The notes: a model not told the origin generated them from the sequence alone. Numbered from the stretch's first letter, positions 2 to 25,392 are shown. The stretch: DNA of 25,936 nucleotides from a virus (IMGVR_UViG_3300015371_000152:1-25936), one strand, 5' to 3'. A program made the numbers and translations.

Positions 2-508
2 AATTTTAATGATGAAGAAGTAACTGAAGATCACTTTTTTCATCTTTCCAAAGCTGAGTTAGTTGAGCTCGAAATGAGCCATCAGGATGGACTCTCTGAG
101 ACGTTGCAGAATATCATCGCAGCAGAAGATGGCAAAGCAATCATCGCTGAATTCAAGAAAATCATTCTAGGCGCATACGGCAAAAAGTCTCCGGATGGCA
201 GACGATTTATCAAAACACAGGAACTTCGAGAAGAATTTGAGTCGAGCGAGGCATATTCGACTCTATTTATGGAGCTAGTCACAGAAACTGACAAAGCAAT
301 CGAGTTCATTAATGGAATTGTGCCGCAAGGACTTGCTGATGATGCAGCCAAAGTGACTCAATTGAGACCAGCTGAGCCGCTAGAGCCGCTAGAGCAAAAA
401 CCAGAACCAAGAATGATCAGTAGAGCAGAAGTCGAAGCAATGTCGCGAGAAGATCTTGTAAAACTGGGGACTGATATTTCCGCGGGCCTAGTCAAGATCG
501 CAGAATAA
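2..508 (+). CDS. Hypothetical phage protein, N-terminus cut by window edge
   Basis: The reading frame is open from base 2 to a stop at 506-508, so the gene starts upstream of the window; an internal ATG at 74 is only a possible start and has no good ribosome site. At least 168 residues are visible. The protein is acidic and helical. Near its C-terminus it has a Pro/Glu-rich linker followed by a segment (SRAEVEAMSREDLVKLG) that loosely echoes the N-terminal SKAELVELE, hinting at a repeated short helical motif. I do not recognise the family. A promoter for the next gene overlaps its 3' end. Confidence 0.75.
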   Translation, partial: NFNDEEVTEDHFFHLSKAELVELEMSHQDGLSETLQNIIAAEDGKAIIAEFKKIILGAYGKKSPDGRRFIKTQELREEFESSEAYSTLFMELVTETDKAIEFINGIVPQGLADDAAKVTQLRPAEPLEPLEQKPEPRMISRAEVEAMSREDLVKLGTDISAGLVKIAE

Positions 509-528
509 ACATCCCGTATAATGAAACC
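497..528 (+). promoter_or_regulatory. Promoter of the 85-aa gene (WTCGCA-N14-TATAATGAAACC class)
   Basis: ATCGCA (497-502), 14 bases, then TATAAT (517-522) followed by GAAACC. The same bipartite pattern with identical spacing occurs at 11747-11778 and 12045-12076. There is no consensus TTGACA. An AAGGAG ribosome site and ATG (547) follow at once, so the predicted leader is under 20 bases. Confidence 0.7.
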
Positions 529-3994: not shown

Positions 3995-6900
3995 ATGGAT
4001 TTTTATCAGATCCTAGTCAAGGAGACAAAAGATAAGAAGCTGGAGCTTTATCCAGACTTCATTGTCGGACGTTCCCGGGATCTGATGGTACAGGGCCGAA
4101 CCTTTTATGCAATTTGGGATGAAGAAAAAGGTCTTTGGTCTCGTGATGAGTACGACGTTCAACGATTAGTGGATGAACATCTACATGCCGAAGCTGCTAA
4201 GTTACGCGAAGAGACAGGACTGAACTATATTATCAAGTCCATGCACTCGTTTCATAGTCATTCATGGGCTACGTTCAGGAAATTCCTGCTCAACATCAGC
4301 GACAATATGCATCCTCTCGATTCAAAGGTCATGTTTTCTAACTCGGAAGTTAAGAAGACTGACTACGCGAGCAAGACACTACCATACGCGTTGGAGGGAG
4401 GTGATTACTCGGCCTGGGATGAACTAGTCGGAACGTTATATTCAGTAGAAGAGAGGGCAAAAATTGAATGGGCTATCGGATCCATCGTTGCTGGAGATTC
4501 AAAGAAAATTCAAAAATTCTTTGTTTTCTATGGCCCTGCTGGATCCGGTAAGTCCACGATTCTCAACGTCATTCACAAATTGTTTGAAGGATATACCACT
4601 ACTTTTGATGGTAAAGCCCTAGGCCGTTCGGATAGCAGTTTTGCAACAGAATCGTTCAAGAACAATCCGCTGGTAGCGATTCAACATGACGGTGATCTAT
4701 CCAGATTGGAAGACAATACTCGGCTGAATTCAATTGTCTCGCATGAGCAGATGACGATGAACGAGAAATACAAGCCGAGTTACACCTCCAGAGCTGACGC
4801 ACTCCTGTTCATGGGTACCAATCAGCCAGTGAAGATAACTGATGCAAAGTCAGGGATCATTCGCAGGTTGGTTGATATCCATCCTACCGGAGTGAAAATT
4901 CCAGTACGGCATTACAACACGCTCATAAGTCAGATTGATTTTGAGCTAGGTGCAATTGCTGTTCATTGTCAGCAAGTATATTTGGAGATGGGTAAGCACG
5001 CTTATAACGATTATCGTCCCTTGGAAATGATGTTGCAAACGGACATCTTTTTCAACTATATCGAAGCGTATTACGATGTCTTCAAATCTCAAGATCACAC
5101 GACGTTGAAGCAAGCTTACGCTTTGTACAAGGAATATTGCGCAGAAACCGGAATCGATCGTCCATTACCTCAGTATAAAATTCGTGAAGAGTTGCGTAAT
5201 TACTTCGACGACTTCAAAGATCGAGGTGAAATTAATGAAGAACGGGTTCGCAGCCTCTATACGGGCTTCAATGCGGCGAAATTCAAAGCGCCGAAAGAGA
5301 CAGAAGAAGATCTACCTGCTTTCTCGCTGGTTATGGATGAGCATGAAAGTCTACTTGATACTTTCCTCCAGGACCAACCAGCGCAGTTGGCGAACAAAGA
5401 GGAAGCGCCGTCGTTAAAGTGGGTCAACGTCAAGACTACTCTTTCAGATATTGATACCAGCAAGCTTCACTATGTGAGAGTACCTTTAAATCACATCGTG
5501 ATTGACTTCGATCTGAAAGAAGTAAATGGGCAAACGAGCCTTGAACGCAATCTTGAGGCTGCGAGTACTTGGCCAGCGACATATGCTGAGCTGAGTAAGT
5601 CTGGTGAAGGTGTACATCTGCATTATGAGTATGGGGGAGATCCTACCGAGCTGGCTTCAGTATATTCTGAAGGCATTGAGATCAAGGTTTACTCTGGTGA
5701 TGCTTCGCTACGTCGACGAGTTTCTCTTTGTAACTCAGTTCCGGTTAGCATAATCACTAGCGGCCTTCCGCTCAAGCAGAAGAAGGAGAAGATGCTTAAG
5801 GCTAAAACTATTTCAACAGAAAAGGGTCTTAGGGATCTAATCGAGCGGAATCTGCGTAAGGAAGTTCATCCAGGGACAAAACCTTCGATCGACTTCATAG
5901 CTCATATTCTCGAAGAGGCATATGAGGATGGGCTGAAGTACGATGTCACAGACATGCGACCTCGTATTTTAGCTTTTGCTAACAACAGTACCAATCAAGC
6001 ATCAATCTGTTTGAAAATTGTCCAGACGATGAAGTTTCAATCCGAGCCTGAGGTTAGTTCGGACGCACAAGTAGAAGTAGCCGATGATCGAATGGCTATA
6101 TTTGACGTCGAGGTTTATCCAAATCTGTTCGTCATTTGCTGGAAATTTCGAGGAGACGATGCAGTTGTTCGGATGATCAACCCGAGTAGAGAAGAAGTTG
6201 AGAACTTAACAAAATTGAAGTTGGTCGGCTTTTACAACCGTCGTTTCGACAATCATATTCTGTATGGTGCTGTTCTTGGTTACAGCATTGCACAGTTGTA
6301 TGACTTGACTCGAAAGATTGTCATCGATAACAATCGGAATGCATTCTTTGCTCAGGCCTACAATCTCTCCTATGCTGATATTTGGGAAATCAGTTCAGTT
6401 AAACAAGGCTTGAAGAAATTTGAAATTGACCTGGGCATCCACCATATGGAACTAGACCTTCCGTTGGATCAGCCGGTAGACGAGAAGGACTGGCCTCGAG
6501 TGGTGGAGTATTGTGTCAACGATGTTCGAGCAACGGAAGCGGTGCTAGAAGATCGTTGGGAAGACTTTGTTGCTCGTCAAATCCTTGCTGAGCTGAGTGG
6601 ATTGACTATTAACGATACGACGCAACGACACACTGCGAAGATCATATTTGGTGATGATAAGAATCCACAACAATATTTTGTCTATACAGACCTAAGTGAG
6701 GAATTCAATGGCTATACGTTTGACGCGGGTCGAAGTTCTTATCGGGGAGAAGATCCAGGAGAAGGTGGTTACGTATACGCTGAACCCGGGATATACTCCC
6801 GTGTTGCTCTTCTTGATGTGGCTTCGATGCACCCAACCACGATCGAACTCCTCAACGTCTTCGGAAAGTACACAGAAAAGTTCTCGGCCCTCAAGGAAGC

Positions 6901-7753
6901 CCGCGTCGCCATAAAGCGGGGTGCGTTCGACAAAGCACGGAAGATGCTGAATGGTCGTTTGAAGCCTTATCTAGAGAATGAGGATAGGGCGGACAAATTG
7001 GCATACGCGCTCAAGATTGTAATCAACATTGTCTATGGCTTAACCTCGGCTAAATTCGATAATCCCTTCCGAGACAAGCGGAACAAAGACAATATCGTCG
7101 CTAAGCGCGGTGCTCTTTACATGATCGACCTCAAGAACGCCTTGCAAGAAGCAGGGTACAAAGTGGCACACATCAAGACCGACTCGGTCAAGATTCCAAA
7201 TGCCACAGGAAAAGCTATTGCCTTCGTAATTAGGCATGGTAAACAATACGGTTACGACTTCGAACACGAGATCACCTATGACAAACTTTGCTTGGTTAAC
7301 GATGCTGTTTATATTGCACGAAAAGATAGTACCTGGACTGCTGTCGGTTCTCAATTTCAGCATCCTTATGTATATAAAACTCTCTTCTCAGGCGAAGAAC
7401 TTACTTTCGACGATTTCTGTGAGAGTAAGAACGTAGTTCAGGGAGCGATGTATCTAGACAGAGAGGAACGTGAAAAAGGTGAAGAGCTTGATCATCGCAG
7501 GATGCGGTTTCTTGGCAGGACTGGCCGGTTCGTACCTGTACAAGTCGGCGGGGGCACCCTCTATCGCGTCAAAGAAGACAAGTACTACGCAGTAGCCGGG
7601 ACCAAGGGCTACCGTTGGATTGACGCGGAGATAGCGCAGACTATCCCCGACTTGAAAATCGACATGGCATATTTCGAAAAGCTAAAAGCTGACGCCATCA
7701 AAACTATCGAAGCATTCGGTTCTTTTGAGGAGTTTGTAAATGGAAGTTCTTAA
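3995..7753 (+). CDS. Fused SF3 helicase / AEP-like primase / family B DNA polymerase
   Basis: 1252 residues. The helicase part has Walker A GPAGSGKST (180-188), a Walker B-like AIQHDGDL (228-235), sensor-1 FMGTN (272-276) and arginine pair IIRR (288-291), as in D5/SF3 helicases. A middle segment has VIDFD (502-506), SGEGVHLHY (536-544) and IEIKVY (561-566), matching the three AEP primase motifs. The C-terminal half is a family B polymerase: exonuclease motifs FDVE (703-706), YNRRFD (747-752) and YCVND (839-843); motif A DVASMHP (941-947), motif B KIVINIVYG (1007-1015), motif C KTDS (1061-1064). It would unwind, prime, copy and proofread phage DNA. Odd points: the usual DTDS is KTDS, and helicase precedes primase. 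Exonuclease and polymerase assignments are firm; the primase rests on motifs. Confidence 0.93.
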   Translation: MDFYQILVKETKDKKLELYPDFIVGRSRDLMVQGRTFYAIWDEEKGLWSRDEYDVQRLVDEHLHAEAAKLREETGLNYIIKSMHSFHSHSWATFRKFLLNISDNMHPLDSKVMFSNSEVKKTDYASKTLPYALEGGDYSAWDELVGTLYSVEERAKIEWAIGSIVAGDSKKIQKFFVFYGPAGSGKSTILNVIHKLFEGYTTTFDGKALGRSDSSFATESFKNNPLVAIQHDGDLSRLEDNTRLNSIVSHEQMTMNEKYKPSYTSRADALLFMGTNQPVKITDAKSGIIRRLVDIHPTGVKIPVRHYNTLISQIDFELGAIAVHCQQVYLEMGKHAYNDYRPLEMMLQTDIFFNYIEAYYDVFKSQDHTTLKQAYALYKEYCAETGIDRPLPQYKIREELRNYFDDFKDRGEINEERVRSLYTGFNAAKFKAPKETEEDLPAFSLVMDEHESLLDTFLQDQPAQLANKEEAPSLKWVNVKTTLSDIDTSKLHYVRVPLNHIVIDFDLKEVNGQTSLERNLEAASTWPATYAELSKSGEGVHLHYEYGGDPTELASVYSEGIEIKVYSGDASLRRRVSLCNSVPVSIITSGLPLKQKKEKMLKAKTISTEKGLRDLIERNLRKEVHPGTKPSIDFIAHILEEAYEDGLKYDVTDMRPRILAFANNSTNQASICLKIVQTMKFQSEPEVSSDAQVEVADDRMAIFDVEVYPNLFVICWKFRGDDAVVRMINPSREEVENLTKLKLVGFYNRRFDNHILYGAVLGYSIAQLYDLTRKIVIDNNRNAFFAQAYNLSYADIWEISSVKQGLKKFEIDLGIHHMELDLPLDQPVDEKDWPRVVEYCVNDVRATEAVLEDRWEDFVARQILAELSGLTINDTTQRHTAKIIFGDDKNPQQYFVYTDLSEEFNGYTFDAGRSSYRGEDPGEGGYVYAEPGIYSRVALLDVASMHPTTIELLNVFGKYTEKFSALKEARVAIKRGAFDKARKMLNGRLKPYLENEDRADKLAYALKIVINIVYGLTSAKFDNPFRDKRNKDNIVAKRGALYMIDLKNALQEAGYKVAHIKTDSVKIPNATGKAIAFVIRHGKQYGYDFEHEITYDKLCLVNDAVYIARKDSTWTAVGSQFQHPYVYKTLFSGEELTFDDFCESKNVVQGAMYLDREEREKGEELDHRRMRFLGRTGRFVPVQVGGGTLYRVKEDKYYAVAGTKGYRWIDAEIAQTIPDLKIDMAYFEKLKADAIKTIEAFGSFEEFVNGSS

Positions 7754-10503: not shown

Positions 10504-10694
10504 GTAACCAGCAGATCGAGAAACTTTTCAACGATCAAGCTCGAACTGATCTGCGTTTGCAACGAATTGAAAAGGCGATTGGGACAATGGCCACATGGCT
10601 TGTCCAGGCACAAACTGGATTCAATGCCAATGATGCCGCAGGAATTGAGAGAATTCTCCGCGGAGAAACTCTGGACGAAAAGAAGACAAATTAG
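10500..10694 (+). CDS. Small protein with WLVQAQTGF domain (paralogue of 11122 gene)
   Basis: 64 residues from ATG 10500 (ATGA overlap); a longer ORF upstream lies inside the previous gene and is rejected. The C-terminal half (RLQRIEKAIGTMATWLVQAQ then TGFN, GIERIL) closely matches residues about 92-125 of the gene at 11122. It looks like a short helical or coiled-coil oligomerisation module. Function unknown. Confidence 0.75.
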   Translation: MSNQQIEKLFNDQARTDLRLQRIEKAIGTMATWLVQAQTGFNANDAAGIERILRGETLDEKKTN

Positions 10695-11147: not shown

Positions 11148-11559
11148 AATCGGAGCTGCTACGAAGATACCACCAGACTCCGATGCTCCAATGCGTGCCG
11201 CTGTAATTCATGCATATTATGAGTTGACTGGAGAGTATCCCGATTTCGTCTTCAGTGGTTGGGGTGATACGCTTACTGACAGTGAACAAGCAGCGTTAGA
11301 ACGTCACGCCGAGATAAGGGAGATGGCTATGGCCGAACCAAAGACTGAACTCGACCATCGTCTAGACCGGATGGAATTAGCTATTAGCACCATGGCTAGT
11401 TGGCTCGTCCAAGCTCAGACCGGATTCAATTCAAAAGATGCTCAAGGAATTGAGCGAATTCTCGCAGGAGGACATTTGGAAGGAGCAGAAGCTGATGAGC
11501 GCCTCAAAAGCCACGTCCATTATCCGGCTGCTGAGCGACAAGAGGAACCGGGATCCTAG
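11122..11559 (+). CDS. Two-part phage protein with WLVQAQTGF domain
   Basis: 145 residues from ATG 11122, preceded by GGGGGAAGTAA. The N-terminal 70 residues contain a motif common in small actinophage proteins (IHAYYELTGEYPDFVFSGWG, then LTDSE). The C-terminal part repeats the helical domain of the 64-aa protein at 10500 (TMASWLVQAQTGFNSKDAQG, then IERIL). Hence it is a fusion of a variable N-terminal domain to a shared C-terminal module. Function unknown. Confidence 0.75.
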   Translation: MGELIWSCKIGAATKIPPDSDAPMRAAVIHAYYELTGEYPDFVFSGWGDTLTDSEQAALERHAEIREMAMAEPKTELDHRLDRMELAISTMASWLVQAQTGFNSKDAQGIERILAGGHLEGAEADERLKSHVHYPAAERQEEPGS

Positions 11560-11746: not shown

Positions 11747-11778
11747 TTCGCAAGCATTACATGCTGTATAATGAAACC
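11747..11778 (+). promoter_or_regulatory. Promoter of the 70-aa gene (WTCGCA-N14-TATAATGAAACC class)
   Basis: TTCGCA (11747-11752), 14 bases, TATAAT (11767-11772), GAAACC, then TATTTAAGGAG and ATG 11795. Almost base-identical downstream of the -10 to the promoter at 12045. Confidence 0.75.
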
Positions 11779-11794
11779 TATTTAAGGAGACATT

Positions 11795-12007
11795 ATGGAG
11801 CATCAAATCCTAACTGTTCCTGAAATGCTCATCGACGTCAAAGCTGACATTGATCAGTGCCAGGCTCTAATTGATCAGGCTCGGGTAGCATTCGCTAACG
11901 ACCCCCACTTTCAACTAACCCTGGACCGTAAACAAACTCAGCTCGACGAACGTCGTGAGCGTGTCAGGATCATGGATGATATTGCCAAGATTGTGTACCA
12001 CAAGTAA
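11795..12007 (+). CDS. Small coiled-coil-like hypothetical protein
   Basis: 70 residues. Two predicted charged helices (about residues 8-32 and 38-66, the latter rich in Arg, Glu and Asp) suggest a helical hairpin. It is preceded by its own promoter and followed by its own terminator, so monocistronic. Family not recognised. Confidence 0.8.
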   Translation: MEHQILTVPEMLIDVKADIDQCQALIDQARVAFANDPHFQLTLDRKQTQLDERRERVRIMDDIAKIVYHK

Positions 12008-12013
12008 CGTTTC

Positions 12014-12046
12014 AAAGCTGGAGTCCTACTTGGACTTTAGCTTTTT
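12014..12046 (+). terminator. Rho-independent terminator
   Basis: A 13-bp stem with two G-T pairs (12014-12026 with 12032-12044), loop TACTT and a T-run. Its T-run abuts the TTCGCA element of the next promoter, so the two units are fused back to back. Confidence 0.92.
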
Positions 12047-12076
12047 CGCAGGAAAAACACTCCTTATAATGAAACC
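12045..12076 (+). promoter_or_regulatory. Promoter of the 30-aa gene (WTCGCA-N14-TATAATGAAACC class)
   Basis: TTCGCA (12045-12050), 14 bases, TATAAT (12065-12070), GAAACC, then TATTTAAGGAG and ATG 12093. Starts right at the end of the preceding terminator. Confidence 0.75.
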
Positions 12077-12207: not shown

Positions 12208-12242
12208 AAAGAGAGTCCAGAACAAGGACTTTCTTTTTTTTT
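12208..12242 (+). terminator. Rho-independent terminator
   Basis: An 11-bp stem with one G-T pair (12208-12218 with 12226-12236), loop AGAACAA and nine or more Ts. Shares the AGTCC/GGACTTT core with the terminator at 12014 and GGACTTT with that at 812. Confidence 0.92.
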
Positions 12243-13900: not shown

Positions 13901-15135
13901 CAGCACTGAAACCACATCAATTCAAAGCGCTGACTGAGCTCAGTGACGGCAAGATTCTCTGGGGTGGAGTGGGTTCAGGTAAGTCGCGGGTTGCTGTGGC
14001 CTATTACGAACTCGAGCACCAGTGTAAGAACGTCTACGTGATCACGACCGCGAAGAAGCGAGACAGCAAAGACTGGGAGGGAGAATTTGCTCGGATTGCT
14101 GTTGGAAAGGAGTGGGACGCCACCATTCATGGTCTCCTTACTGTGGATAGCTGGAATAACATTTCTAAGTACGCTGCTGTGGAGCACGCTTTCTTTATTT
14201 TTGATGAGCAAAGACTCGTCGGGCACGGGAAATGGGTAAAAGCATTCCTAAAAATTGCCCGGGGGAACAATTGGATCCTACTTTCCGCAACTCCCGGCGA
14301 CACCTGGATGGACTATATTCCCGTTTTCGTCGCCAATGGCTTCTACAAGAACCGAACCGAGTTCATCCGCGAGCACGTCGTCTATACACCCTACGTAAAG
14401 TTCCCCAAAGTCGCTAGATATTTGGGTACGGGAAAACTGAACAAGCTGCGCAATCAGATCCTGATCCATATGCCCTATGAGATGCACACGGTCCGTCATT
14501 CACCAACAATCTACGTCGAGCACAACGAAGAGCTGCTGCAATCAGTACTGAAGAACCGCTGGCATATCTACCAGAACCGACCAATAAAAGATATTGCCGA
14601 GCTCTTTGGAGTGATGCGGAGAGTGGTGAATAGTGATCCCTCGCGAGTGAAAGCGATTGAAGAATTATTGGAGCAACACCCAAAGCTGGTCGTCTTCTAC
14701 AACTTCAATTACGAGCTCGAGGCACTGAGACGACTGGAAAAACTAGTACCAATGGCGGAATGGAACGGTTGGAAGCACGAAGAGATTCCGGAAGCGGATG
14801 CTTGGATTTACCTAGTTCAGTATGTAGCTGGTTCGGAAGGTTGGAACTGTGTCGAGACAAATGCAGTGGTCTTCAATTCACTGACATATTCGTACAAGAA
14901 CTGGGAGCAAGCGCATGGGCGAATTGACCGACTTAATACCCCTTTCGTGGATCTTTATTACTATACTCTGCGTTCTCGAAGCATAATTGATACAGCTATT
15001 TGGCGGAGTCTGAAGGCAAAGAAGAACTTCAACGCCTCCAAGTTTCCAATTGAGCAGTTGAAGGGAGAGCATAATGCCGATCTCAGTCGGTCCACACGAG
15101 TTCAAGCCAGTTCGGATCTGGGACGGATGGAGTGA
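13897..15135 (+). CDS. SF2 (SNF2-like) DNA helicase/translocase
   Basis: 412 residues. Walker A GVGSGKSR (24-31), motif II FDEQR (102-106, a DExx variant), motif III SATP (130-133), a C-terminal RecA-like lobe with GSEGWN (312-317) and motif [10 protein letters not shown] (338-345). This is a compact superfamily 2 helicase of the kind found in phage replication regions, where it may aid fork restart, recombination or origin opening. The N-terminal LKPHQFKAL is a Q-motif-like element. The last 25 residues are Arg/Ser-rich and look disordered. It is the largest gene between the polymerase and the tail fibres. Confidence 0.9.
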
Positions 15136-15241
15136 TAGCGGTCGCTGTAGTCATTGTTATCTACCCAAGCGAGCACATCCAGTCGAGAGTTGGGTAGAAG
15201 CGAGACCGATGCACGATAAATCGGAGCCAAAGGATGGCTAA
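15074..15241 (+). CDS. 55-residue hypothetical protein with CxxC
   Basis: ATG 15074 lies inside the end of the helicase gene, after AAGGGAGAGCATA. The product has CSHC in the middle with nearby His residues, a possible zinc site, and a charged C-terminal tail. The stop overlaps the next start region (15234). Function unknown. Confidence 0.6.
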
Positions 15242-15449
15242 GCTCGAGGAGCGAATTCTGCTCCATTCATTGATCGAGAATCCAGACTGGTGTCTCTTTT
15301 ACCATCGAGAACAAGTTAAACTACTGCTGCCTGCTCTGGCCAAGTCGCATATTTTGGTGACTGGAATCGAGCAGCAGCTACGGAAAGATTTAGCAGAATT
15401 GGAAGGTAGTCGGGATGGGGAAGCAAAAAGTCAGGTTAAAGAAGAATAA
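15234..15449 (+). CDS. Small helical hypothetical protein
   Basis: 71 residues from ATG 15234. Helical throughout ([20 protein letters not shown], then a charged C-terminal coiled-coil-like stretch). Its start lies inside the previous gene and its end inside the next, so it is coupled. Function unknown. Confidence 0.65.
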   Translation: MAKLEERILLHSLIENPDWCLFYHREQVKLLLPALAKSHILVTGIEQQLRKDLAELEGSRDGEAKSQVKEE

Positions 15450-15627
15450 GGACGGTACGGTATCGATATTTTTCGCCGCTTACAGCTTTAGTAAGGAACT
15501 AGATGTCGGCACATTGTCGCCAGAAGAAAAATTTAATGCGATTCGCTGGACAATCCTCAATCAAGGCTTTGTTTTTACGGAAAAAATCGAACGAGAAGTA
15601 CGGAAACTGATCAATTACCACCTTTAG
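15415..15627 (+). CDS. Small basic hypothetical protein
   Basis: 70 residues from ATG 15415. Basic N-terminus (MGKQKVRLKKNKDGTVSIFF) likely forming a beta hairpin, then two helices. A possible small nucleic-acid binder by charge only. It overlaps the previous gene by 35 bases. Confidence 0.65.
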   Translation: MGKQKVRLKKNKDGTVSIFFAAYSFSKELDVGTLSPEEKFNAIRWTILNQGFVFTEKIEREVRKLINYHL

Positions 15628-15628
15628 G

Positions 15629-15760
15629 ATGAGGCTGATAGTGAAGAAGAAAAAGAAAATTTTACTCTGTGCAGCGCCGCACTGCTATAACCTAGCTTGG
15701 CAAGGTCATAAGCACTGTTATTCTCATTTACAAGAGATAAAAAACAAGGAAAAAAGTTAG
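15629..15760 (+). CDS. 43-residue putative zinc-finger peptide
   Basis: ATG 15629 directly follows the previous stop; GTG 15641 is an alternative. A Lys run (residues 6-10) is followed by CAAPHC and HKHCYSH, a plausible C-C-H/C-H zinc site. It shares the CxxxHCYN string with the 75-aa protein at 12258. It is the last gene before the long non-coding region. Confidence 0.6.
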   Translation: MRLIVKKKKKILLCAAPHCYNLAWQGHKHCYSHLQEIKNKEKS

Positions 15761-17030: not shown

Positions 17031-17103
17031 TATAATAGAAGGGTAGTAAATGCCTCTTCCTTTTTTCACATTTATTCCATCGCAAGGGAGGTGAGGAGTA
17101 TAT
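17031..17103 (+). promoter_or_regulatory. Possible promoter and leader of the tail-fibre operon
   Basis: TATAAT at 17031-17036 with only a weak TTATGT-like -35 (17007-17012). A pyrimidine-rich leader and a strong AGGGAGGTGAGGAG ribosome site precede ATG 17104. Confidence 0.45.
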
Positions 17104-17478
17104 ATGGTCGCAACAATTAACGTTCAGCCACAGACTTTGAACCTGGCACTTTATGCTGGCGACGGTGTCTCGTTCAGAATTTTGTGTACTGATGCTGCTG
17201 GTGATCCTGTTGATGTTACAGGCGCTATTGAAGCACAGGTGCGACTAACTCGTCTTACAGATGATCCTCCCCTGGCTGAATTTGCGGCCAGTATGGTGGA
17301 TGCTTATCAAGGTATTGTTGTTCTTTCTTTGACTGGAGATCAAACGAAGGAACTTTCAGACTCCGTCGAAGATGGAAACTTTAAGGGAGTATGGGATCTA
17401 CAGTGGGTTCCGGCTTCGAGTGAACCACGCACTCTTTGCCAGGGTAGTGTGGAGTGTGTATCCGATGTTACTCGATGA
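17104..17478 (+). CDS. Putative tail/baseplate-associated beta-sandwich protein
   Basis: 124 residues. The fold pattern (beta strands with DGVSFRILCTDAAGDPVDVT near residue 20 and a second half with GIVVLSLTG and WDLQWVP) matches the Ig-like N-terminal domain of baseplate upper proteins (BppU-type) that appear at the head of fibre clusters. No enzymatic motif. It heads the fibre operon and overlaps the next gene. Assignment is by pattern and context. Confidence 0.65.
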   Translation: MVATINVQPQTLNLALYAGDGVSFRILCTDAAGDPVDVTGAIEAQVRLTRLTDDPPLAEFAASMVDAYQGIVVLSLTGDQTKELSDSVEDGNFKGVWDLQWVPASSEPRTLCQGSVECVSDVTR

Positions 17479-17986
17479 TCTAATTATTAAAATTGAGGTC
17501 GACGAAGTCGAACTCATGGTGGATATACCAGAAACAACAGTTGTTCTCGAGGCGGATCCGTTTGCTATCGTAGAGATTTCAAAAAGTTCGGGTCCTTATG
17601 GCCTGATTATTGAAGCTAATCAAATTGAGGTACAGATTGAGGATCAACCTGAATTTACTTTTGTGGCTGACTCAAGCCCTGATGTCATTGTTATAGCGGC
17701 AGGTAACATCGGTAATCCAGGTCCTCCTGGAGCTCCAGGTTCAGTAGGCCCCATTGGTCCCCAGGGTCCTGCTGGACCAGCCGGTCCTCCTGCGGCTAGT
17801 TATATTTTCATTCAAGGCCCACCCTCAGCTATATGGGTTGTAACTCATAATTTGAATAGACAGCCTTCGGTTACGGTGGTAGATACCGGAGATAGTGTCA
17901 TAATTCCTAGTGTTCATTATGACAGCGCTAATCAAGTAACTCTTACCTTTGGTTCCGCGACTTCTGGAAAGGCGTATCTTAACTAA
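17465..17986 (+). CDS. Tail-fibre protein with collagen-like repeat
   Basis: 173 residues from ATG 17465 (GTG 17447 is an alternative). A beta-rich N-terminal domain of about 80 residues is followed by about nine Gly-X-Y triplets (GPPGAPGSVGPIGPQGPAGP) and then a C-terminal domain containing VTHNLNRQPSVTVVD, a common fibre-tip domain in phages of Gram-positive bacteria. The collagen-like stretch would trimerise into a shaft. Overlaps both neighbours; its stop overlaps the next start (TAATG). Confidence 0.85.
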   Translation: MLLDDLIIKIEVDEVELMVDIPETTVVLEADPFAIVEISKSSGPYGLIIEANQIEVQIEDQPEFTFVADSSPDVIVIAAGNIGNPGPPGAPGSVGPIGPQGPAGPAGPPAASYIFIQGPPSAIWVVTHNLNRQPSVTVVDTGDSVIIPSVHYDSANQVTLTFGSATSGKAYLN

Positions 17987-19263
17987 TGCCTACTCTAGGT
18001 AACGCACTCGATTTTGCCAAGTATGAGGCGCGGAATATCAGAGGCCACCAGCTCGGTTCTGCGCCATCGTCTCCTGTTACAGGACAACTTTATTACAACA
18101 CTAGTGATAATACTCTCTATTGGTATGACGGTACTACCTGGCAATCAGCAAAGGGTGGATCAGGATCACCTACAGGTGCTGCTGGTGGAGACCTTTCAGG
18201 TACTTATCCTAATCCCCAAATTGCAGCTGGTGTAATCACTGATGCTGATGTGAATGCTGCAAACAAGGACGGTGCTGTTGGTACTCCCTCTTTGCGTACG
18301 CTTGGCTCGGGAGCAGCACAGGCTATGCCGGGGAATCGTACCTTAGATGCAATTAATTCACCGACAAGTTCGGTGAACATGAATAACCAGCGTCTTAACC
18401 TTGTTGGTAATCCAACACTTGGAACTGATGCTGCTAATAAAAGTTATGTTGATGCGCTTGCATCGGGGATTGATGCAAAAGAGTCGGTTAAGGCTGCGTC
18501 AACAGGTAACTGGGCCTCGTTTAGTGGCCTCGGCACAATGGATGGCGTTTCACTTTCTGATGGTGATCGTGTTTTGTTGAAGGATCAGACAGCTCCAGCT
18601 CAAAATGGTATTTATCAAGCTTGGGCAACTGGTTGGGTTCGTACTTCTGATGCGGACTCTTGGGCAGAATTGCCGGGTGCTCATGTATTTGTCGAGCAAG
18701 GAGCTACACAGGCTGATACTGGTTGGGTCTGTTCTTCAGATCAGGGTGGTACTTTAGGTACGACCGCAGTGAACTGGGTTCAGTTCTCAGCAGCTGGTCA
18801 GATTCAGGGTGGAGCAGGTCTGCTCAAGACGGGTAATGTACTTGATGTCGGCGCCGGTGCTGGTATTACTGTTAATGCAGACACGATTCAAGTCGCAAAT
18901 AACGGTATTACTAATGCGATGATTGCTGATGGAGCTATTGATCTTGCTTCAGCTGACGTCACTAATACACTGCCTCTTACTAAGGGTGGCACTGGTCAGA
19001 CCACTACCAAGACTGCTCGAGAAACTGGTCTGGCTGCAGCGGGTTATTACTCGTCAGCCACCCATGGTGCAGGTACGACAATTTCGATTACTGCTGCCAC
19101 GCATGGCCTGCGGGCTTCACGAGGTCTGATTGTCCAGGCACAGCTCGAGGCGGATGGTTCAGTTCTGATTCCGGATATTGTTGTTGCTGCTAACGGTGAT
19201 GTCACAGTTACCTTTGGCGTCTCTCAGGCTGCAAATACGATTCGGGTTACGGTGATTGGATAA
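17986..19263 (+). CDS. Long tail-fibre protein
   Basis: 425 residues. The N-terminus contains GQLYYNTSDNTLYWYDGTTW, a motif typical of fibre proteins. Further on are GDLSGTYPNPQIAAG, a DAANKSYVDA motif, LLKDQTAPAQNGIYQAW and LPLTKGGTGQTT, all hallmarks of repeated tail-fibre segments. Composition is rich in Gly, Ala, Thr and Asn and predicted beta-structured, forming an elongated trimeric shaft. It probably mediates host-surface contact. Confidence 0.9.
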   Translation: MPTLGNALDFAKYEARNIRGHQLGSAPSSPVTGQLYYNTSDNTLYWYDGTTWQSAKGGSGSPTGAAGGDLSGTYPNPQIAAGVITDADVNAANKDGAVGTPSLRTLGSGAAQAMPGNRTLDAINSPTSSVNMNNQRLNLVGNPTLGTDAANKSYVDALASGIDAKESVKAASTGNWASFSGLGTMDGVSLSDGDRVLLKDQTAPAQNGIYQAWATGWVRTSDADSWAELPGAHVFVEQGATQADTGWVCSSDQGGTLGTTAVNWVQFSAAGQIQGGAGLLKTGNVLDVGAGAGITVNADTIQVANNGITNAMIADGAIDLASADVTNTLPLTKGGTGQTTTKTARETGLAAAGYYSSATHGAGTTISITAATHGLRASRGLIVQAQLEADGSVLIPDIVVAANGDVTVTFGVSQAANTIRVTVIG

Positions 19264-19988
19264 TGCCAGAGATTGTTGGTAGACTAAGAACCCCTCGACT
19301 TCCTGGAGCGCCTGCCTCTCCTGTAGTCGGAGAGGTTTATTACGATACCACTACCAACATTCTTTATTGGTGGAATGGCACCGCTTGGTTTTCAGCAAAA
19401 GGTGGTGGCGGAGTAGATTATATTGGTACTTGGAGCGCTGCAGTCCCGTATAAAGCTGGTGATGTTGTTACTCATGGTGGTCGGGATTATTTAGCAGTTA
19501 ATCCTTCTACTGGACAAACACCTCCTGCGCCAGGTAGTGGTACAAGTAGTGGCGGCGGATCACCTTGGCAAACGGGTGATGAAAAAATTAGTGCTATTGC
19601 TGCTACACATGCAGATCCTCTTGGCGGTACTTGGTATCTTGCTGATGGTTCAGCAGTTCCTCCTGCCAATACTGCTTTGGTAGCTTTGCTTGGAGCAAAT
19701 TTCCCCGATGCTCGTGGTCGTAGTTTGGTTATGCTAGGTACACATGCTGATGTGAATGCTATTGGTAAAGTTGAGCAAGCAGCTCTTTCTGTAGGTAGTC
19801 GTAGAATGAAACATAGTCATACGAAAGCATTAACTGTACCATGGGGTAATGTTGGTGGTTCAGGACTTGCTACTCCAAATACAAATTATCAAGGGGATAT
19901 TAGTGTAAGTGGTACTATTGGTGTTGCTGGTGCGGGTATTGATGAACCAGCTTTCGTTGTCATTGGCAATCTCTTCTATCATTCGTAA
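19263..19988 (+). CDS. Tail collar/fibre-tip protein with putative carbohydrate-binding domain
   Basis: 241 residues. GEVYYDTTTNILYWWNGTAW near the N-terminus repeats the fibre motif of the previous gene. Residues about 50-80 have YIGTWSAAVPYKAGDVV and DYLAVNPSTGQTPP, resembling a small chitin/cellulose-binding (CBM5/12-like) module. The C-terminal 110 residues match a phage tail collar domain (LADGSAVP, FPDARGRSLVMLG, HSH, EPAFVVIGNLFYHS). This is a good candidate receptor-binding tip. Overlaps the previous stop. Confidence 0.87.
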   Translation: MPEIVGRLRTPRLPGAPASPVVGEVYYDTTTNILYWWNGTAWFSAKGGGGVDYIGTWSAAVPYKAGDVVTHGGRDYLAVNPSTGQTPPAPGSGTSSGGGSPWQTGDEKISAIAATHADPLGGTWYLADGSAVPPANTALVALLGANFPDARGRSLVMLGTHADVNAIGKVEQAALSVGSRRMKHSHTKALTVPWGNVGGSGLATPNTNYQGDISVSGTIGVAGAGIDEPAFVVIGNLFYHS

Positions 19989-19997
19989 AGGAGAGAT

Positions 19998-20783
19998 ATG
20001 AGTGAACCTTATTGGGAGCTCCTAGGTGGAGCAGGTTACCCGCCCACAGATACTGCACCAGATGAATCGGTATTGACTGTTGATTCTCCTGGTTCACCGC
20101 CAATTTGGAAAGCTGCACCAGGTGGAGGTGGAGTAGATTATATTGGTGATTGGGCCGTTGGTACTACTTATAAACGCGGAGATGTAGTTCGCTATAACGG
20201 TATTGACTATCTTGCTGTAAATCCTTCTACAGGGCAAGTGCCACCTACGGCTGTGCCAACAACACATGCAATGGTATGTCTTTTTGATCAGATTCTTGCC
20301 GCTAATGCAGCTAACTTTGATGTGATAGGTATTCCACAAATTTATGCACAGCTGCTGATTATGGCACAGATTCGAGGAACTGATGCTGCAGGGCAGATTT
20401 CAAACTGGTGGCGTTTCAATAATGATTCAGGAGCAAACTATTATTATGAGTATCTTACTGCTTTTGCAACTACTGTATCATCGGCAGAAGGATTAGCGCA
20501 AGCTCAAATCTTTGCTGGGAATGCTCCTTCAGCAGCAGCTCCGGCAGGGGCAGCTGCCATATTTGAAGCGAAAATTCCAAATTATGCTGGAACAACATTT
20601 CAAAAAGCTATCGAAACTGTTGTGGCAAATAGAAACGGCACTGTTTCGACTACTGTGCGTAAAGATCAATCAGGTGGGCATTGGGCAAGTACTGCGGCTA
20701 TTAATCGCCTTACTTTGTATCCAAATGCTGGTCTATATCTTGCTGGTTCCCGTTTGACCGTTTATGGATTGAGAGGTTTGTGA
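19998..20783 (+). CDS. Receptor-binding fibre protein, duplicated family
   Basis: 261 residues from ATG 19998, after AAAGGAGAGAT. It carries the same YIGDWAVGTTYKRGDVV / DYLAVNPSTGQ module as the previous gene, then a C-terminal beta-rich domain (WRFNNDSGANYYYEYLTAFA, IPNY, INRLTLYPNAG) that is shared with the next gene. The N-terminus MSEPYWELLG also matches the next gene's. It looks like a module-swapped receptor-binding protein. Confidence 0.82.
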   Translation: MSEPYWELLGGAGYPPTDTAPDESVLTVDSPGSPPIWKAAPGGGGVDYIGDWAVGTTYKRGDVVRYNGIDYLAVNPSTGQVPPTAVPTTHAMVCLFDQILAANAANFDVIGIPQIYAQLLIMAQIRGTDAAGQISNWWRFNNDSGANYYYEYLTAFATTVSSAEGLAQAQIFAGNAPSAAAPAGAAAIFEAKIPNYAGTTFQKAIETVVANRNGTVSTTVRKDQSGGHWASTAAINRLTLYPNAGLYLAGSRLTVYGLRGL

Positions 20784-21865
20784 TGAGCGAGCCATATTGG
20801 GAACCCCTTGCTGCTTCACTTGTATCTTCTGGATTAGTTAAACTTTATGATTTGATTCTACCTGCTGCTGCAGCAAATTTTGATATTACGTCTCTTACAC
20901 AAGAGTATGCACATCTGCGTTTGATAGCCCAGCTTAGAGGAGATAATGCTTCCTTAAATGTTGGTGCTTATTTACGTTTCAATAATGATTCAGGCGCAAA
21001 TTATAATGGGCAACGATTAGCTGCAGGAGCGGCAACAGTTACAGCAGCAGAAGCACTAGCTGGTACTGGTGCTCACATAGGATATTGTGCAGCTGGTAGT
21101 GCTGGTGCAGGAAGAGCAGCAATTTTTGGTGTCGATATTCCAAATTATTCTCAAGCGGTGTTTCACAAACAGCTCGTTTCGCTTAATAATCGAAACGACA
21201 GTGATACTACTGCACAAACTGATATTGAGCACTTTATCTCTAACTGGAAGAATACTGCGGCAATTAATCGAATTACTCTTTATCCTAATTCTGGAAATTT
21301 TGCTGTAGGTTCTCGTTGCACGCTTTATGGTCTTGATACACGATCCGTGGCTTCGCCAGCTTCAGCTCTTATTTCAGTTGTCACGTCACTTCCGGCAAGT
21401 CCTTACGATGGACAGGAAGTGATTCTTACTGATTCTCTTACAGCACCTACTTATTCTTGGCGATTGATTTATCTTGCTGCAATCACAGATGCATATAAAT
21501 GGCTTTGTATTGGTGGCGATGCGAAATCAGTTCGTGTGGAAACTGATTATCCGACTAATCCAGCATTGTCGCTTTCTGTTCCTCGTCCGGGTATTTATAA
21601 TTTGGATCATGGTGCAACTTGGTATCTCCTTGATACTACAAGTACTGTTTATTCTACGGATCTTGTAGTAGACGGCGCAGGTTCTTATGCATATTACCTT
21701 ACGCGTGGAACGGCCAATACGAGTGGATTTATGGGAGCGAGTGCTGGTCATCAGCCAGGAGTTGTTGTTGCTTCAACAATTCTGCAACGAACTGGAATTA
21801 ATACTGGTACGATTGGACGCATCGAGCGACGTTGGATTAAGGCAATGCCAGTGAGACTTTCATGA
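20783..21865 (+). CDS. Receptor-binding fibre protein, paralogue of previous gene
   Basis: 360 residues from ATG 20783 (GTG 20780 is the alternative). The start MSEPYWEPL and the domain with YLRFNNDSGANYNGQRLAAG, IPNYS and INRITLYPNSG match the previous protein without its CBM-like module. It then gains a further C-terminal region of about 160 residues, containing LPASPYDGQEVILTDS and WYLLDTT, a pattern often seen in fibre-tip domains. Tandem duplication followed by domain gain. Confidence 0.82.
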   Translation: MSEPYWEPLAASLVSSGLVKLYDLILPAAAANFDITSLTQEYAHLRLIAQLRGDNASLNVGAYLRFNNDSGANYNGQRLAAGAATVTAAEALAGTGAHIGYCAAGSAGAGRAAIFGVDIPNYSQAVFHKQLVSLNNRNDSDTTAQTDIEHFISNWKNTAAINRITLYPNSGNFAVGSRCTLYGLDTRSVASPASALISVVTSLPASPYDGQEVILTDSLTAPTYSWRLIYLAAITDAYKWLCIGGDAKSVRVETDYPTNPALSLSVPRPGIYNLDHGATWYLLDTTSTVYSTDLVVDGAGSYAYYLTRGTANTSGFMGASAGHQPGVVVASTILQRTGINTGTIGRIERRWIKAMPVRLS

Positions 21866-22179
21866 CCGAGAGTCAGTTCCAAGCGCGCTTGATTAGGAAG
21901 CTCGAGAAGATGTTTCCTGGTTGTATGATTATGAAAACTGATTCTGCTTATAGGCAAGGAATGCCAGATCTGATTATTCTCTGGGAAAAGTATTGGGCTT
22001 CGCTAGAAGTCAAAGCTGATGCATCATCAAGCTCACAGCCTAATCAAGGCTATTACATTCAGAAGTTGAATGACATGTCCTTTGCCGCTTATATCTACCC
22101 AGAAAACGAAATGGAGGTTTTGAGTGCGCTTCAACAAGCATTTAAACCTCCAAGGCGAACACGCGTTTCTAAGTCCTAG
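21862..22179 (+). CDS. VRR-NUC-like PD-(D/E)XK nuclease
   Basis: 105 residues from ATG 21862 (ATGA overlap). The nuclease core is visible: GMPDLIIL (33-40) giving the catalytic Asp, and LEVKAD (48-53) giving the E-x-K pair, followed by a helix with Gln. This matches VRR-NUC / Holliday-junction-resolvase-like nucleases of phages. Likely processes branched or single-stranded DNA during recombination or packaging. The last 10 residues are basic. Confidence 0.85.
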   Translation: MTESQFQARLIRKLEKMFPGCMIMKTDSAYRQGMPDLIILWEKYWASLEVKADASSSSQPNQGYYIQKLNDMSFAAYIYPENEMEVLSALQQAFKPPRRTRVSKS

Positions 22180-22681
22180 TCAGCATCATTGGATTCATTA
22201 CACACCCGATCGCTTACTCGAGCGTTGGACCGCCGCCCAGGCTGCCGCTTACGGCACGTTGCAACATGAGTATGCGCATCGAGAAATTGAAGCAGGTCGA
22301 CTCTCAGATCTTGTTGGTACTATAGGTCTCTATATCAATGATGCAATTCGATACAGGATGACCTGTGAACAAGTTCTCTACTACTCTGAGAATTGTTTTG
22401 GCACTGCTGATACGATTGCTTTCCGTTATAAAACGCTCCGCATCCATGATCTAAAAACTGGTGTTTGGCCAGCGCATGTTCATCAGCTCGAGATTTATGC
22501 AGCACTCTTTTGTCTTGAATATGATGTAGATCCGTTTGAGATTAAGATTGAGTTGCGCATTTATCAGAGCAATGAAGTTATCGTCTATGATGCTGATCCC
22601 GAGGATATTATCTTTATTATGGGAAAAATCCAAGAATTTGATAAACTAATTGCCCATAAGAAATTAGAGGAGGAATCTTGA
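22124..22681 (+). CDS. RecB/Cas4-like PD-(D/E)XK exonuclease
   Basis: 185 residues from GTG 22124, which has GGAGG 12 bases upstream and overlaps the previous gene by 56 bases. Motifs: GTLQHEYAHREIE (44-56, the conserved His), GTADTIAF (93-100, catalytic Asp), HDLKTG (108-113, D-x-K) and QLEIY (121-125, the Q-x3-Y motif), in the order of RecB/AddB/Cas4 nucleases. No four-cysteine iron-sulfur cluster is seen, so it is nearer phage RecB-like exonucleases than canonical Cas4. Probable role in DNA-end processing or recombination. No CRISPR array is nearby. Confidence 0.88.
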   Translation: MRFNKHLNLQGEHAFLSPSQHHWIHYTPDRLLERWTAAQAAAYGTLQHEYAHREIEAGRLSDLVGTIGLYINDAIRYRMTCEQVLYYSENCFGTADTIAFRYKTLRIHDLKTGVWPAHVHQLEIYAALFCLEYDVDPFEIKIELRIYQSNEVIVYDADPEDIIFIMGKIQEFDKLIAHKKLEEES

Positions 22682-25392
22682 TTCGCACTCAAGAACAACA
22701 TCTCGCTCACTACGGAATTCTCCGCAAATCTGGCCGATATCCTTGGGGTTCAGGTTCAACTCAAAACATCCGTAATAAACATTTTCTCAACGTAGTCAGT
22801 GATCTTAAGAAACAAGGTATGTCAGAAACTGAAATTGCCAACGGTTTTGGGATTACGACTACAGAACTACGCGCTAATAAATCGATTGCCCGTGATCAGC
22901 AACGTCGCTCGAAGCAGCTGCAGGCTCAGCGCTATAAAGATAAAGGTTGGTCAAATACTGAAATTGGTAGGCGCATGGGTATCGGGGAATCGTCGGTTCG
23001 AGCTTTGCTTGCTCCTGGCGCTAAAGATAATGCTGATGCTCTTCAGACCACGGCCAACTTGCTCAGAGATCACGTGACTGAGAAGAAGATGATTGATGTT
23101 GGTTCTGGGGTTGAATCTACCTTGGCGATTACGCAAACGCGTTTGAACAATTCTATAGCCGTGTTGAAAGAAGAAGGCTATAACGTTTATTCAATCAAGA
23201 TCCAGCAGATTGGTACCGGTAAGTACACGACGATGAAAGTTTTAGCTGAGCCTGGTATTACCTTACAAGATGTTCAGAGGAATCGAGCTCAGATCAGGCA
23301 GATTGATGAACGTTCAGAGGATTATGGTCGCAGTTTTAATGGAGGTATTCAGCCACCTATCTCGGTTAGTTCGAGACGTCTTGCGGTAAACTATAAAGAA
23401 GACGATGGAGATAAGGCTGACGGTTTGATCTATGTTCGTCCAGGAGCAAAGAATCTTTCTCTGGGAAACAATAAGTATGCCCAGGTTCGTATTGCGGTTG
23501 ATGGCACGCATTATTTGAAGGGTATGGCTGTTTACAAGGATAATCTTCCTGAGGGTAAAGATCTTGTTTTCAATACGAATAAAGGTCGACACGTTCCGCT
23601 AAAAAGTAATGATCCCAAAGTTGATACGATTCTGAAGAAGCAAACAGATGATCCAGAGTTTCCTTTTGGATCGGTTGTTTCTCAGATTCAAGGGCCGAAT
23701 GGTAAAGTTATTTCGGCGATGAACCTTGTCAATGATGAAGGTACTTGGGACAAATGGTCTCGAAATCTTTCTTCGCAGATGTTGTCAAAGCAGAGTCCTG
23801 AGTTAGCTCAACAACAACTAAATCTTACGCAGGAACGTCGTCGTAGAGAGTTTGATGAAATTAATTCTTTGATGAATCCGACTGTGCGTAAGGATCAGCT
23901 GCTCAAATTTGCTGACAAGACGGATGCTGCAGCAGTGCATCTCAAAGCAGCAAGTCTTCCACGGCAGGCAACAAAGGTGATTCTTCCGGTTAATTCAGTT
24001 AAGCCAGATCAGATTTATGCACCAAGTATGAGAGATGGGGAAAAGGTTGTCTTGATTCGTCATCCTCATGGAGGAACGTTTGAGATTCCTGAGTTGACGG
24101 TGAATAACCGAAATCGAGAAGCAAAAGCAATTCTAGGCCGTCAGGCTATGGATGCGGTTGGTATTCATCATACCGTTGCTCAACGTTTGTCCGGGGCAGA
24201 TTTCGATGGGGATACAGTTCTTGTTATTCCCAACAATAGGCAATCTGTAAAATGGACCCCCGCCCTTGAAGGATTGAAGGACTTTGATCCACAGGTCTAT
24301 AAGGTACCCGCAGATTCTCCTATCCCACGCATGACTTCTACACGCAAGGGATATGAGATGGGTAAAATTTCTAATCTGATTACCGATATGACTATTCAGG
24401 GGGCTAACAACGAACAGTTGGCTCGTGCACTTCGACATTCGATGGTAGTTATCGATGCAGAAAAACATCATCTTGATTACCGCCGGTCGGAGAAAGATAA
24501 TGGTATTGCTGCTCTGAAAGAAGAGTATCAGGGTGGAAAGAATCGAGGAGCTACTACTTTAATTAGTAGAGCTAAGGCCCCTAAGGTAATTAATGAAAGA
24601 GTAGAAAGACCTGCTCGAAGAGGCGGACCTATCGATCCAGTTACAGGTAAGAAGGTCTTTGAGGACACAGGAAGAATGATTCCTGAACGGAAGCGTGTAG
24701 TAGATCGTGCCTCGGGTAGAGTAACGTATGTAGATACAGGTAGAATGGTTCCAGCAAAGATGCGGGTAAAGCAGCTGGCCTTTGAGGGAGACGCAGAAAA
24801 GCTTTCATCGGGTACTAAGATGGAAGGGATTTATGCTCAGCATTCTAATGAGTTGAAGGCCATGGCTAATGCGGCAAGAAAAGAAGCACTTCCACTCAAA
24901 GGTATTCCTCGATCCCCCTCAGCGGCGAAGGTGCATGAAGCTGAGGTTAAATCATTGAATGCTAAGCTTAACGTGGCTAAAAAGAATGCCCCCCGTGAAA
25001 GACAAGCCCAGCTCCTAGCAAATGCCCAGGTCTCTTTGAGGCGCCAGGCTAATCCAAACATGGAGAAGGAAGAAGTAAAGAAGGTTAAACAACATGCGTT
25101 GAATGAGGCGCGGATAAGAACAGGTGCTGATAAAGACCGGATTACCTTTACTCAAGCAGAATGGAATGCTATTCAGGCAGGAGCTATTGCTCCTACTAAG
25201 TTGGATGAGATACTTCGGAATGCGGATGCCGAGTCAGTTAAGAAGATGGCTCTGCCCAAGGAAGCAACTAAGTTGACTAGCACTATGCTACGTAGGGCTC
25301 AGTCAATGGCGAACTCTGGCCATACCCAGGCTGAAATAGCAGATGCCCTAGGTATTGGGTTGACTACACTCAAGGTAGGACTCAATGAGTGA
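22678..25392 (+). CDS. Single-chain YonO-like RNA polymerase with N- and C-terminal HTH segments
   Basis: 904 residues from TTG 22678 (TTGA overlap, GAGGAGG upstream). GADFDGDT (506-513) is the metal-binding signature of the RNA polymerase beta-prime double-psi beta-barrel; before it come VVLIRHPHGGTFEIPELTV (457-475) and AVGIHHTVAQRLSGADFDGD (493-512), which align with the conserved beta-prime strands. An earlier segment (about 265-350, with YLKGMAVYKD and the basic NTNKGRH) plausibly forms the second, beta-like barrel. The N-terminus has HYGILRKSGRYPWGSG (11-26) and two helix-turn-helix-like repeats (46-66, 87-108); another is at 872-895. A tandem DTGRMIP/DTGRMVP repeat lies at 663-692. YonO is 905 residues long by memory. 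Probably transcribes phage genes. Polymerase activity is inferred. Confidence 0.82.
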   Translation: MIRTQEQHLAHYGILRKSGRYPWGSGSTQNIRNKHFLNVVSDLKKQGMSETEIANGFGITTTELRANKSIARDQQRRSKQLQAQRYKDKGWSNTEIGRRMGIGESSVRALLAPGAKDNADALQTTANLLRDHVTEKKMIDVGSGVESTLAITQTRLNNSIAVLKEEGYNVYSIKIQQIGTGKYTTMKVLAEPGITLQDVQRNRAQIRQIDERSEDYGRSFNGGIQPPISVSSRRLAVNYKEDDGDKADGLIYVRPGAKNLSLGNNKYAQVRIAVDGTHYLKGMAVYKDNLPEGKDLVFNTNKGRHVPLKSNDPKVDTILKKQTDDPEFPFGSVVSQIQGPNGKVISAMNLVNDEGTWDKWSRNLSSQMLSKQSPELAQQQLNLTQERRRREFDEINSLMNPTVRKDQLLKFADKTDAAAVHLKAASLPRQATKVILPVNSVKPDQIYAPSMRDGEKVVLIRHPHGGTFEIPELTVNNRNREAKAILGRQAMDAVGIHHTVAQRLSGADFDGDTVLVIPNNRQSVKWTPALEGLKDFDPQVYKVPADSPIPRMTSTRKGYEMGKISNLITDMTIQGANNEQLARALRHSMVVIDAEKHHLDYRRSEKDNGIAALKEEYQGGKNRGATTLISRAKAPKVINERVERPARRGGPIDPVTGKKVFEDTGRMIPERKRVVDRASGRVTYVDTGRMVPAKMRVKQLAFEGDAEKLSSGTKMEGIYAQHSNELKAMANAARKEALPLKGIPRSPSAAKVHEAEVKSLNAKLNVAKKNAPRERQAQLLANAQVSLRRQANPNMEKEEVKKVKQHALNEARIRTGADKDRITFTQAEWNAIQAGAIAPTKLDEILRNADAESVKKMALPKEATKLTSTMLRRAQSMANSGHTQAEIADALGIGLTTLKVGLNE

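Follow-up and report, generated by a model that had tools for sequence, protein, structure and literature searches.

Single-chain, two-barrel RNA polymerases are already known from phages; described examples include YonO of Bacillus phage SPbeta, gp64 and gp96 of Thermus phage P23-45, and gp66 of the crAss-like phage phi14:2. YonO, whose mass is about 100 kDa and which carries a catalytic triad of Asp residues, has its known role in late genes, and gp64 was undetectable in virions (PMC10770324). P23-45 gp96 has been proposed to enter with the DNA and transcribe early genes (PMC10770324), and the PDB entry title of crAss gp66 describes a virion-packaged polymerase.

We analysed a viral stretch of 25,936 bases from IMG/VR (IMGVR_UViG_3300015371_000152:1-25936, hereafter 'the window'), in which a first-pass annotation, made from the sequence alone, had proposed a single-chain RNA polymerase of the YonO type carrying the motif GADFDGDT and three helix-turn-helix segments that might provide built-in promoter recognition.

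A conserved gene at the end of the replication half

The gene and its two conserved neighbours are as follows.

22678..25392, + strand: predicted single-chain two-barrel RNA polymerase, 904 aa, TTG start (ORF call, PHROG 4291, homologs, alignment, AlphaFold models)
22124..22681, + strand: Cas4/RecB-like exonuclease, conserved upstream neighbour (PHROG 3953; order same in relatives)
21862..22179, + strand: VRR-NUC-like endonuclease, conserved neighbour (PHROG 93 endonuclease; VRR-NUC name inferred)

The TTG start overlaps the stop codon of the Cas4-like gene. The protein is matched over its full length by an existing profile, PHROG 4291 (1186 bits, aa 4-903), and has homologs at 35-55% identity in 250 INPHARED phage records, 249 of which cover at least 80% of the query. 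Their hosts are chiefly Arthrobacter (95), Gordonia (55), Streptomyces (54), Lactococcus (13) and Curtobacterium (7), with Rhodococcus, Microbacterium and Faecalibacterium also represented, and further homologs are found in gut siphoviruses. The prevailing labels in these records are 'helix-turn-helix protein' or 'RNA-dependent RNA polymerase'. Given the full-length profile match, the 250 phage records and a DFDGD motif that is invariant in 47 aligned sequences, the reading frame is not a chance ORF; it is a real gene, ordinary for its phage group. The ORF and its GADFDGDT motif (aa 506-513), as first reported, therefore held.

Gene order is largely kept in named relatives, running from a PolB-primase fusion through a single-strand annealing protein, helicase, HNH, VRR-NUC, Cas4/RecB-like exonuclease, the polymerase and a small ORF to the genome end. 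The window has the same order, plus a fibre-like gene block ahead of VRR-NUC; it lacks the head and tail module that complete relatives have at the left. The first-pass placement of the gene outside an early replication cluster does not hold, since the gene forms the end of the replication and recombination half. The fibre-like block itself (17104-21865, between HNH and VRR-NUC) comprises collagen-like and fibre-like genes with repeated N-terminal modules; it is absent at this place in the named relatives examined, and may be an insert. Elsewhere in the window, a 122-nt direct repeat in the early region (10554-10675 and 11359-11480, 71% identical) resembles duplicated small genes, and Rfam and tRNA scans of the window gave no matches.

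The predicted fold is that of a two-barrel RNA polymerase

The features of the predicted catalytic core are listed here.

24199..24213, + strand: catalytic motif DFDGD, aa 508-512 (invariant in 47 aligned sequences)
23359..23757, + strand: predicted beta-like barrel DPBB-B, approximately aa 228-360, boundaries approximate (QDE-1 alignment over both barrels, 6vjs_I, invariant R271/H278/K281/G282)
23959..24240, + strand: predicted beta-prime-like barrel DPBB-A, approximately aa 428-521 (structure matches, including the p97 N-domain barrel over the same region)
24337..24468, + strand: two long helices 3' of the barrel, aa 554-597, candidate bridge-helix region (AlphaFold secondary structure; assignment inferred)

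In the same 47 sequences, R-x-PH (aa 461-464, upstream of DFDGD), R271, H278, K281 and G282 are also invariant, and the protein contains IHHTVAQRLSGADFDGDTVLVIP, which, judged by eye only, is like the bacterial beta-prime motif. AlphaFold produced a full-length model with a pLDDT of 79 and pTM of 0.69, and a model of the core (aa 224-745) with a pLDDT of 86.5 and pTM of 0.77. When the core was compared with solved structures using VIA-align, the highest scores were obtained for the polymerases RDR2 (Z 17.4; 4.0 Å over 351 residues) and QDE-1 (Z 16.7; 4.5 Å over 371 residues), followed by the Thermus phage proteins gp64 and gp62 (Z 13.1, 359-366 residues, spanning both barrels), with scores falling to about 9.5 for multisubunit chains. 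Foldseek likewise matched the core to QDE-1 (E 6e-10), gp64 (E 2e-9) and crAss gp66 (6vr4; E 1.3e-3), and it matched beta-type chains (E. coli and plastid) separately from beta-prime chains (Taq and Thermus); the subunit identities of these PDB chain letters are ones that we take to be correct (for example, 6vjs_I as E. coli RNA polymerase beta, which aligned to the predicted core at 4.8 Å over 152 columns).

The DxDGD-bearing barrel of the model matches beta-prime chains and p97 N-domain barrels, and a second, beta-like barrel is predicted upstream in the same chain, where the QDE-1, RDR2 and gp64 alignments extend over both barrels. Pfam RdRP (PF05183) gave weak matches in eight of ten family members scanned (best E 1e-4). 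Searches of the PDB by sequence (phmmer and profile) found no polymerase, only helix-turn-helix or chance matches. Because the model matches QDE-1 and RDR2, gp62 and gp64, and both beta and beta-prime chains, with weak support from Pfam RdRP, we consider it very likely that the protein is a single-chain two-barrel RNA polymerase, in which the metal site, DFDGD, would lie in DPBB-A and basic residues would come from DPBB-B. The central claim of the first-pass annotation, including the two double-psi barrels that it expected in a structure model, is thus upheld by the predicted structure; enzymatic activity remains an inference.

Comparison with described polymerases

QDE-1 and RDR2 give the highest structural scores (Z 15-17), over both barrels, but they are eukaryotic, carry other flanking domains and act in RNA interference. 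P23-45 gp64 and P74-26 gp62, the Thermus nvRNAPs, are single-chain phage enzymes in which both barrels superpose on our model (about 360 residues) and whose motif, GADYDGD, corresponds to GADFDGD in a weak motif alignment; they differ in length (about 600 aa) and in having no Pfam match, and hence no detected helix-turn-helix. The models predict that gp64 and the polymerase described here have the same fold; common membership of one family goes beyond the evidence. Gene 64 of P23-45 (5291-7141) carries the RefSeq label 'head protein', yet it has been published as the non-virion RNA polymerase gp64.

YonO is likewise a single-chain phage protein with the catalytic triad, and is without a Pfam match. 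Alignment by hhalign, which is underpowered against the single sequences of YonO, gp64 and gp96, gave only an unrelated 20-column match to YonO, and a tblastn search with YonO led to another set of phages. The label 'YonO-like' is thus unsupported by this underpowered comparison; the closest solved relatives are the RNA interference polymerases and the Thermus nvRNAPs. In several SPbeta relatives yonO is split in two by an insert, with a GIY-YIG nuclease gene beside it in one record, possibly reflecting an intron or intein. The crAss-like gp66 shares the two-barrel core (to which its Foldseek match is weak) and, if the packaging inferred below is right, would also share a place in the virion; it differs in its length of 2180 aa and its Bacteroidota phage origin.

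Helix-turn-helix segments flank the core

Three segments with helix-turn-helix character were identified.

22762..22869, + strand: first helix-turn-helix-like segment, aa 29-64, weak by sequence (model helices 29-45, 50-56 and 61-88; weak Pfam/PHROG matches)
22906..23010, + strand: second helix-turn-helix, aa 77-111, HTH_23 / sigma-70 region 4-like (HTH_23 E 1e-6)
25279..25386, + strand: C-terminal helix-turn-helix, aa 868-903, moderate, the second clear segment (sequence profiles and AlphaFold model)

The HTH_23 and sigma-70 region 4 models match all ten members scanned. The three segments first proposed are therefore of unequal standing, with aa 77-111 strong, aa 868-903 moderate, and aa 29-64 weak by sequence and helical in the model. 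Since such segments are present and a promoter-like element co-occurs with the polymerase gene (see below), the suggestion of built-in promoter recognition is plausible, with recognition itself inferred.

An N-terminal tag related to a peptide of head-module proteins

Preceding these segments is a short conserved peptide.

22702..22755, + strand: N-terminal tag LAHYGILRKSGRYPWGSG, aa 9-26, DUF7211-related, candidate virion-packaging signal (near-invariant in 47 sequences; pLDDT < 50; tag HMM)

The family form of the tag, LAHYGILRxSGRYPWGSG, is near-invariant across the 47 aligned sequences though it is modelled as disordered (pLDDT < 50), a pattern that would be expected of a linear peptide signal. 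A related peptide, [DE][DE]FLAHYGVKGMKWGVRR, is found in head-module proteins of ReqiPoco6, Secretariat, Mudcat, Rima, Scap1, P078 and 1706, and in the proteins scanned it corresponds to Pfam DUF7211 (PF23847), a 25-aa tag of head-module proteins. DUF7211 is placed N-terminally or between domains, beside a LigT-like 2H phosphoesterase, a GNAT acetyltransferase or a papain-fold domain. The tags of the polymerase and of the head proteins of the same phages have in common a [DE][DE]xLAHYG core and, across the two variants, only about ten residues ([DE]xxLAHYG); the polymerase tag then continues SGRYPWGSG and the head proteins KGMKWGVRR.

DUF7211-type matches in the named genomes fetched fall either within the head module, near TerL and portal, or on the polymerases themselves. 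DUF7211 was present in 22 of 23 contigs selected for the polymerase (the exception being a 34-kb record), compared with none of 22 control contigs and none of 14 control genomes; the control contigs were chosen by a phiC31-type portal protein and represent one phage lineage. With an HMM of the polymerase tag, many DUF7211 head-module proteins rank next after the polymerases, with the caveats that one unrelated short chance ORF scored above most DUF7211 proteins and that the best shuffled match had an E of 0.096. A query with the 25-aa tag retrieved 245 phage records, with genus counts near-equal to those of the 250 polymerase records, and may include the polymerase's own tag. The Pfam DUF7211 scan of the window protein gave no match at the curated cut-off, and the same model scored the polymerase N-terminus of one relative at E 2.5e-4 (17.6 bits, below the cut-off of 27).

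The deposited record of Lactococcus phage 1706 (EU081845) gives the label 'structural protein' both to orf7, which contains two tags, and to the polymerase, orf75. Inferred functions in that deposited annotation carry the wording 'putative', and we assume that the 'structural protein' labels reflect virion mass spectrometry. From the shared tag and the label of orf75, and without virion proteomics, we infer that the polymerase is likely to be a virion protein, as are the virion RNA polymerases of N4, phiKZ, crAss-like phages and P23-45 (gp96). The internal proteins of T4 likewise bear a short N-terminal capsid targeting sequence, of different sequence, which directs diverse cargo into the head.

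Some of the DUF7211-tagged head-module proteins themselves resemble packaged cargo (14111-15727 of one phage record; 5953-7653 and 9829-11382 of another), and the papain-fold domain among them is Gln_amidase-like. In other phages, enzymes of the 2H type are known to counteract CBASS.

A promoter-like element co-occurs with the polymerase

The window contains three exact copies of the element TCGCA-N7-CA-N2-C-N2-TATAATGAAACC (none in shuffles), together with one variant.

498..528, + strand: first copy of the promoter-like element, 5' of the ORF at 547 (pattern search)
11748..11778, + strand: second copy of the promoter-like element, 5' of the ORF at 11795 (pattern search)
12046..12076, + strand: third copy of the promoter-like element, immediately 3' of a terminator-like hairpin (pattern search)
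17031..17042, + strand: variant TATAATAGAAGG, 5' of the fibre / VRR-NUC / Cas4 / polymerase block (chance expectation 0.13, one mismatch allowed)

A ribosome-binding site and a start codon follow shortly after each exact copy, and terminator-like hairpins lie close by. Similar hairpins at 805-843, 12012-12046 and 12210-12240 (of the GGACTTTAGCTTTTT type) close short cassettes behind the elements. Written with fewer fixed positions, the element is TCGCA-N7-C-N6-TATAATGAAACC, with no -35. When left still less specified (TCGCA-N14-TATAATGAAACC) it occurs in 88 IMG/VR stretches, and a permuted control pattern in none; among 106 distinct instances one unspecified position is C in every one, the A before it is 90% conserved, and nothing is conserved in the sequence upstream, where no -35 signal is present. 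The element also conserves WWWACA in its spacer and GARACC downstream. A sigma-70 promoter reading, which we had considered, is weakened by the lack of -35 conservation.

The exact motif occurs in 33 contigs of at least 35 kb, and the polymerase is encoded in 28 of them. Named phages carry several plus-strand copies of the element, most of them 3' of the tail genes (TATAGTGAGACC being a variant); in those checked, elements follow the structural genes and none precede them. The exact actinophage element was not found in Lactococcus phages or in FP_oengus. Repeats of TTTTACA-N5-TATARTRRA are found in the Lactococcus phages 1706, P078 and CHPC971, and a relaxed pattern, WACA-N5-TATARTR, occurs in 2-12 copies in each of eight other polymerase phages, Lactococcus phages included, for a total (with the window) of 69 sites in nine phages, 68 of them on the plus strand. 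It is not found in the Faecalibacterium polymerase phage FP_oengus. Of six comparison phages that lack this polymerase (SPbeta, P23-45, phi14:2, Streptomyces phiC31, Lactococcus sk1 and Arthrobacter ArV2), five had no site and one, which is not among the last three, had a single site (chance level). The relaxed pattern was chosen partly after seeing the repeats of 1706 and P078; a contig test with controls came later, in which TACA-N5-TATARTGA was found in 14 of 23 polymerase contigs (39 sites, all on the polymerase strand) and in none of 22 controls, which all represent one phage lineage. This strict form is missing from the other nine polymerase contigs.

In 34 of 92 loci the polymerase tag is preceded by the variant TATAATAGAAGG, at a distance of 897-1511 nt and mostly of 900-990, and the polymerase operon may carry the same promoter type. 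On the basis of co-occurrence, and without transcript data, we infer that the element is likely to be a promoter used by the polymerase.

A proposed model and its alternatives

A packaged polymerase for early genes, as proposed for P23-45 gp96 and crAss gp66, is the simplest reading that joins these observations. In this model the polymerase would be made late in infection, drawn into the prohead by its DUF7211-like N-terminal tag, and delivered with the DNA at infection. The helix-turn-helix at aa 77-111 and the C-terminal one would recognise phage promoters in the non-structural half (TCGCA-N4-WWWACA-N5-TATARTGARACC in actinobacterial phages and TTTTACA-N5-TATARTRRA in Lactococcus phages), and early genes would thus be transcribed without the host enzyme. 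What is demonstrated is the predicted fold with its invariant catalytic motif, and the tag and promoter-like element with their co-occurrence; activity, packaging, injection, promoter recognition and specificity, and timing are inferred. We place the probability of the full model, a virion-packaged RNA polymerase with its own promoters for early genes, at roughly 0.6. Co-occurrence of polymerase, tag and element could also stem from shared ancestry alone.

The alternative that survives best is that the protein is a polymerase, and the elements are strong early promoters of the host RNA polymerase, unrelated to it. The element contains a perfect TATAAT box, perhaps readable by a host sigma factor, and the short cassettes with terminator-like hairpins are typical of early phage genes. 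Against this, -35 information is missing, the spacer C and WWWACA and the downstream GARACC are conserved, and the element is missing from unrelated phages of the same hosts while being common to hosts of two phyla. On balance we consider this explanation less likely than not.

A second alternative, which we regard as unlikely, is a two-barrel polymerase made after infection and not packaged, which would transcribe middle or late genes, much as YonO transcribes the late genes of SPbeta. YonO (PMC5467207) and Thermus gp64 (PMC10770324) are both made in the infected cell, and, with the promoter-like variant preceding the tag by about 900-990 nt at 34 of 92 loci, the gene may be expressed from the polymerase's own promoter type. 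However, the tag is common to head-module proteins, orf75 of 1706 is deposited as a structural protein, and the elements of the named phages checked follow structural genes rather than preceding them.

Finally, a fold retained by an inactive enzyme or for another job (for example, as a head protein that binds DNA, or as a polymerase that uses RNA templates), as annotations of 'RNA-dependent RNA polymerase' or 'helix-turn-helix protein' and nearest solved folds among RNA interference polymerases might suggest, is very unlikely, given that DFDGD and the candidate DPBB-B basic residues R271 and K281 are invariant in 47 sequences, that the carriers are dsDNA phages, and that YonO, whose core is of this kind, depends on DNA templates.

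Implications

In the open-access literature searched, which leaves out most subscription journals, neither the tag nor the element is described in any paper that we found. The polymerase is carried by phages of Gram-positive bacteria, where its usual label is only that of a DNA-binding protein. A bolder reading, which could as readily prove wrong as right, is that these proteins form a widespread and largely unrecognised polymerase class, packaged in siphovirus heads by a portable peptide tag common to other cargo (2H phosphoesterase, acetyltransferase and papain-fold domains), and initiating early transcription at a promoter of its own, one conserved across phages of Actinomycetota and of Bacillota.

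If the packaged-polymerase model is true, at least 250 sequenced phage records, many of them of easily grown phages, hold a virion RNA polymerase under the wrong annotation, along with a prediction of its promoter. That prediction would by itself permit mapping of early genes in the genomes of polymerase phages. The system would represent a new, small transcription system together with a peptide that possibly steers cargo into phage heads, and would give studies of the single-chain relatives of cellular RNA polymerase a tractable model.
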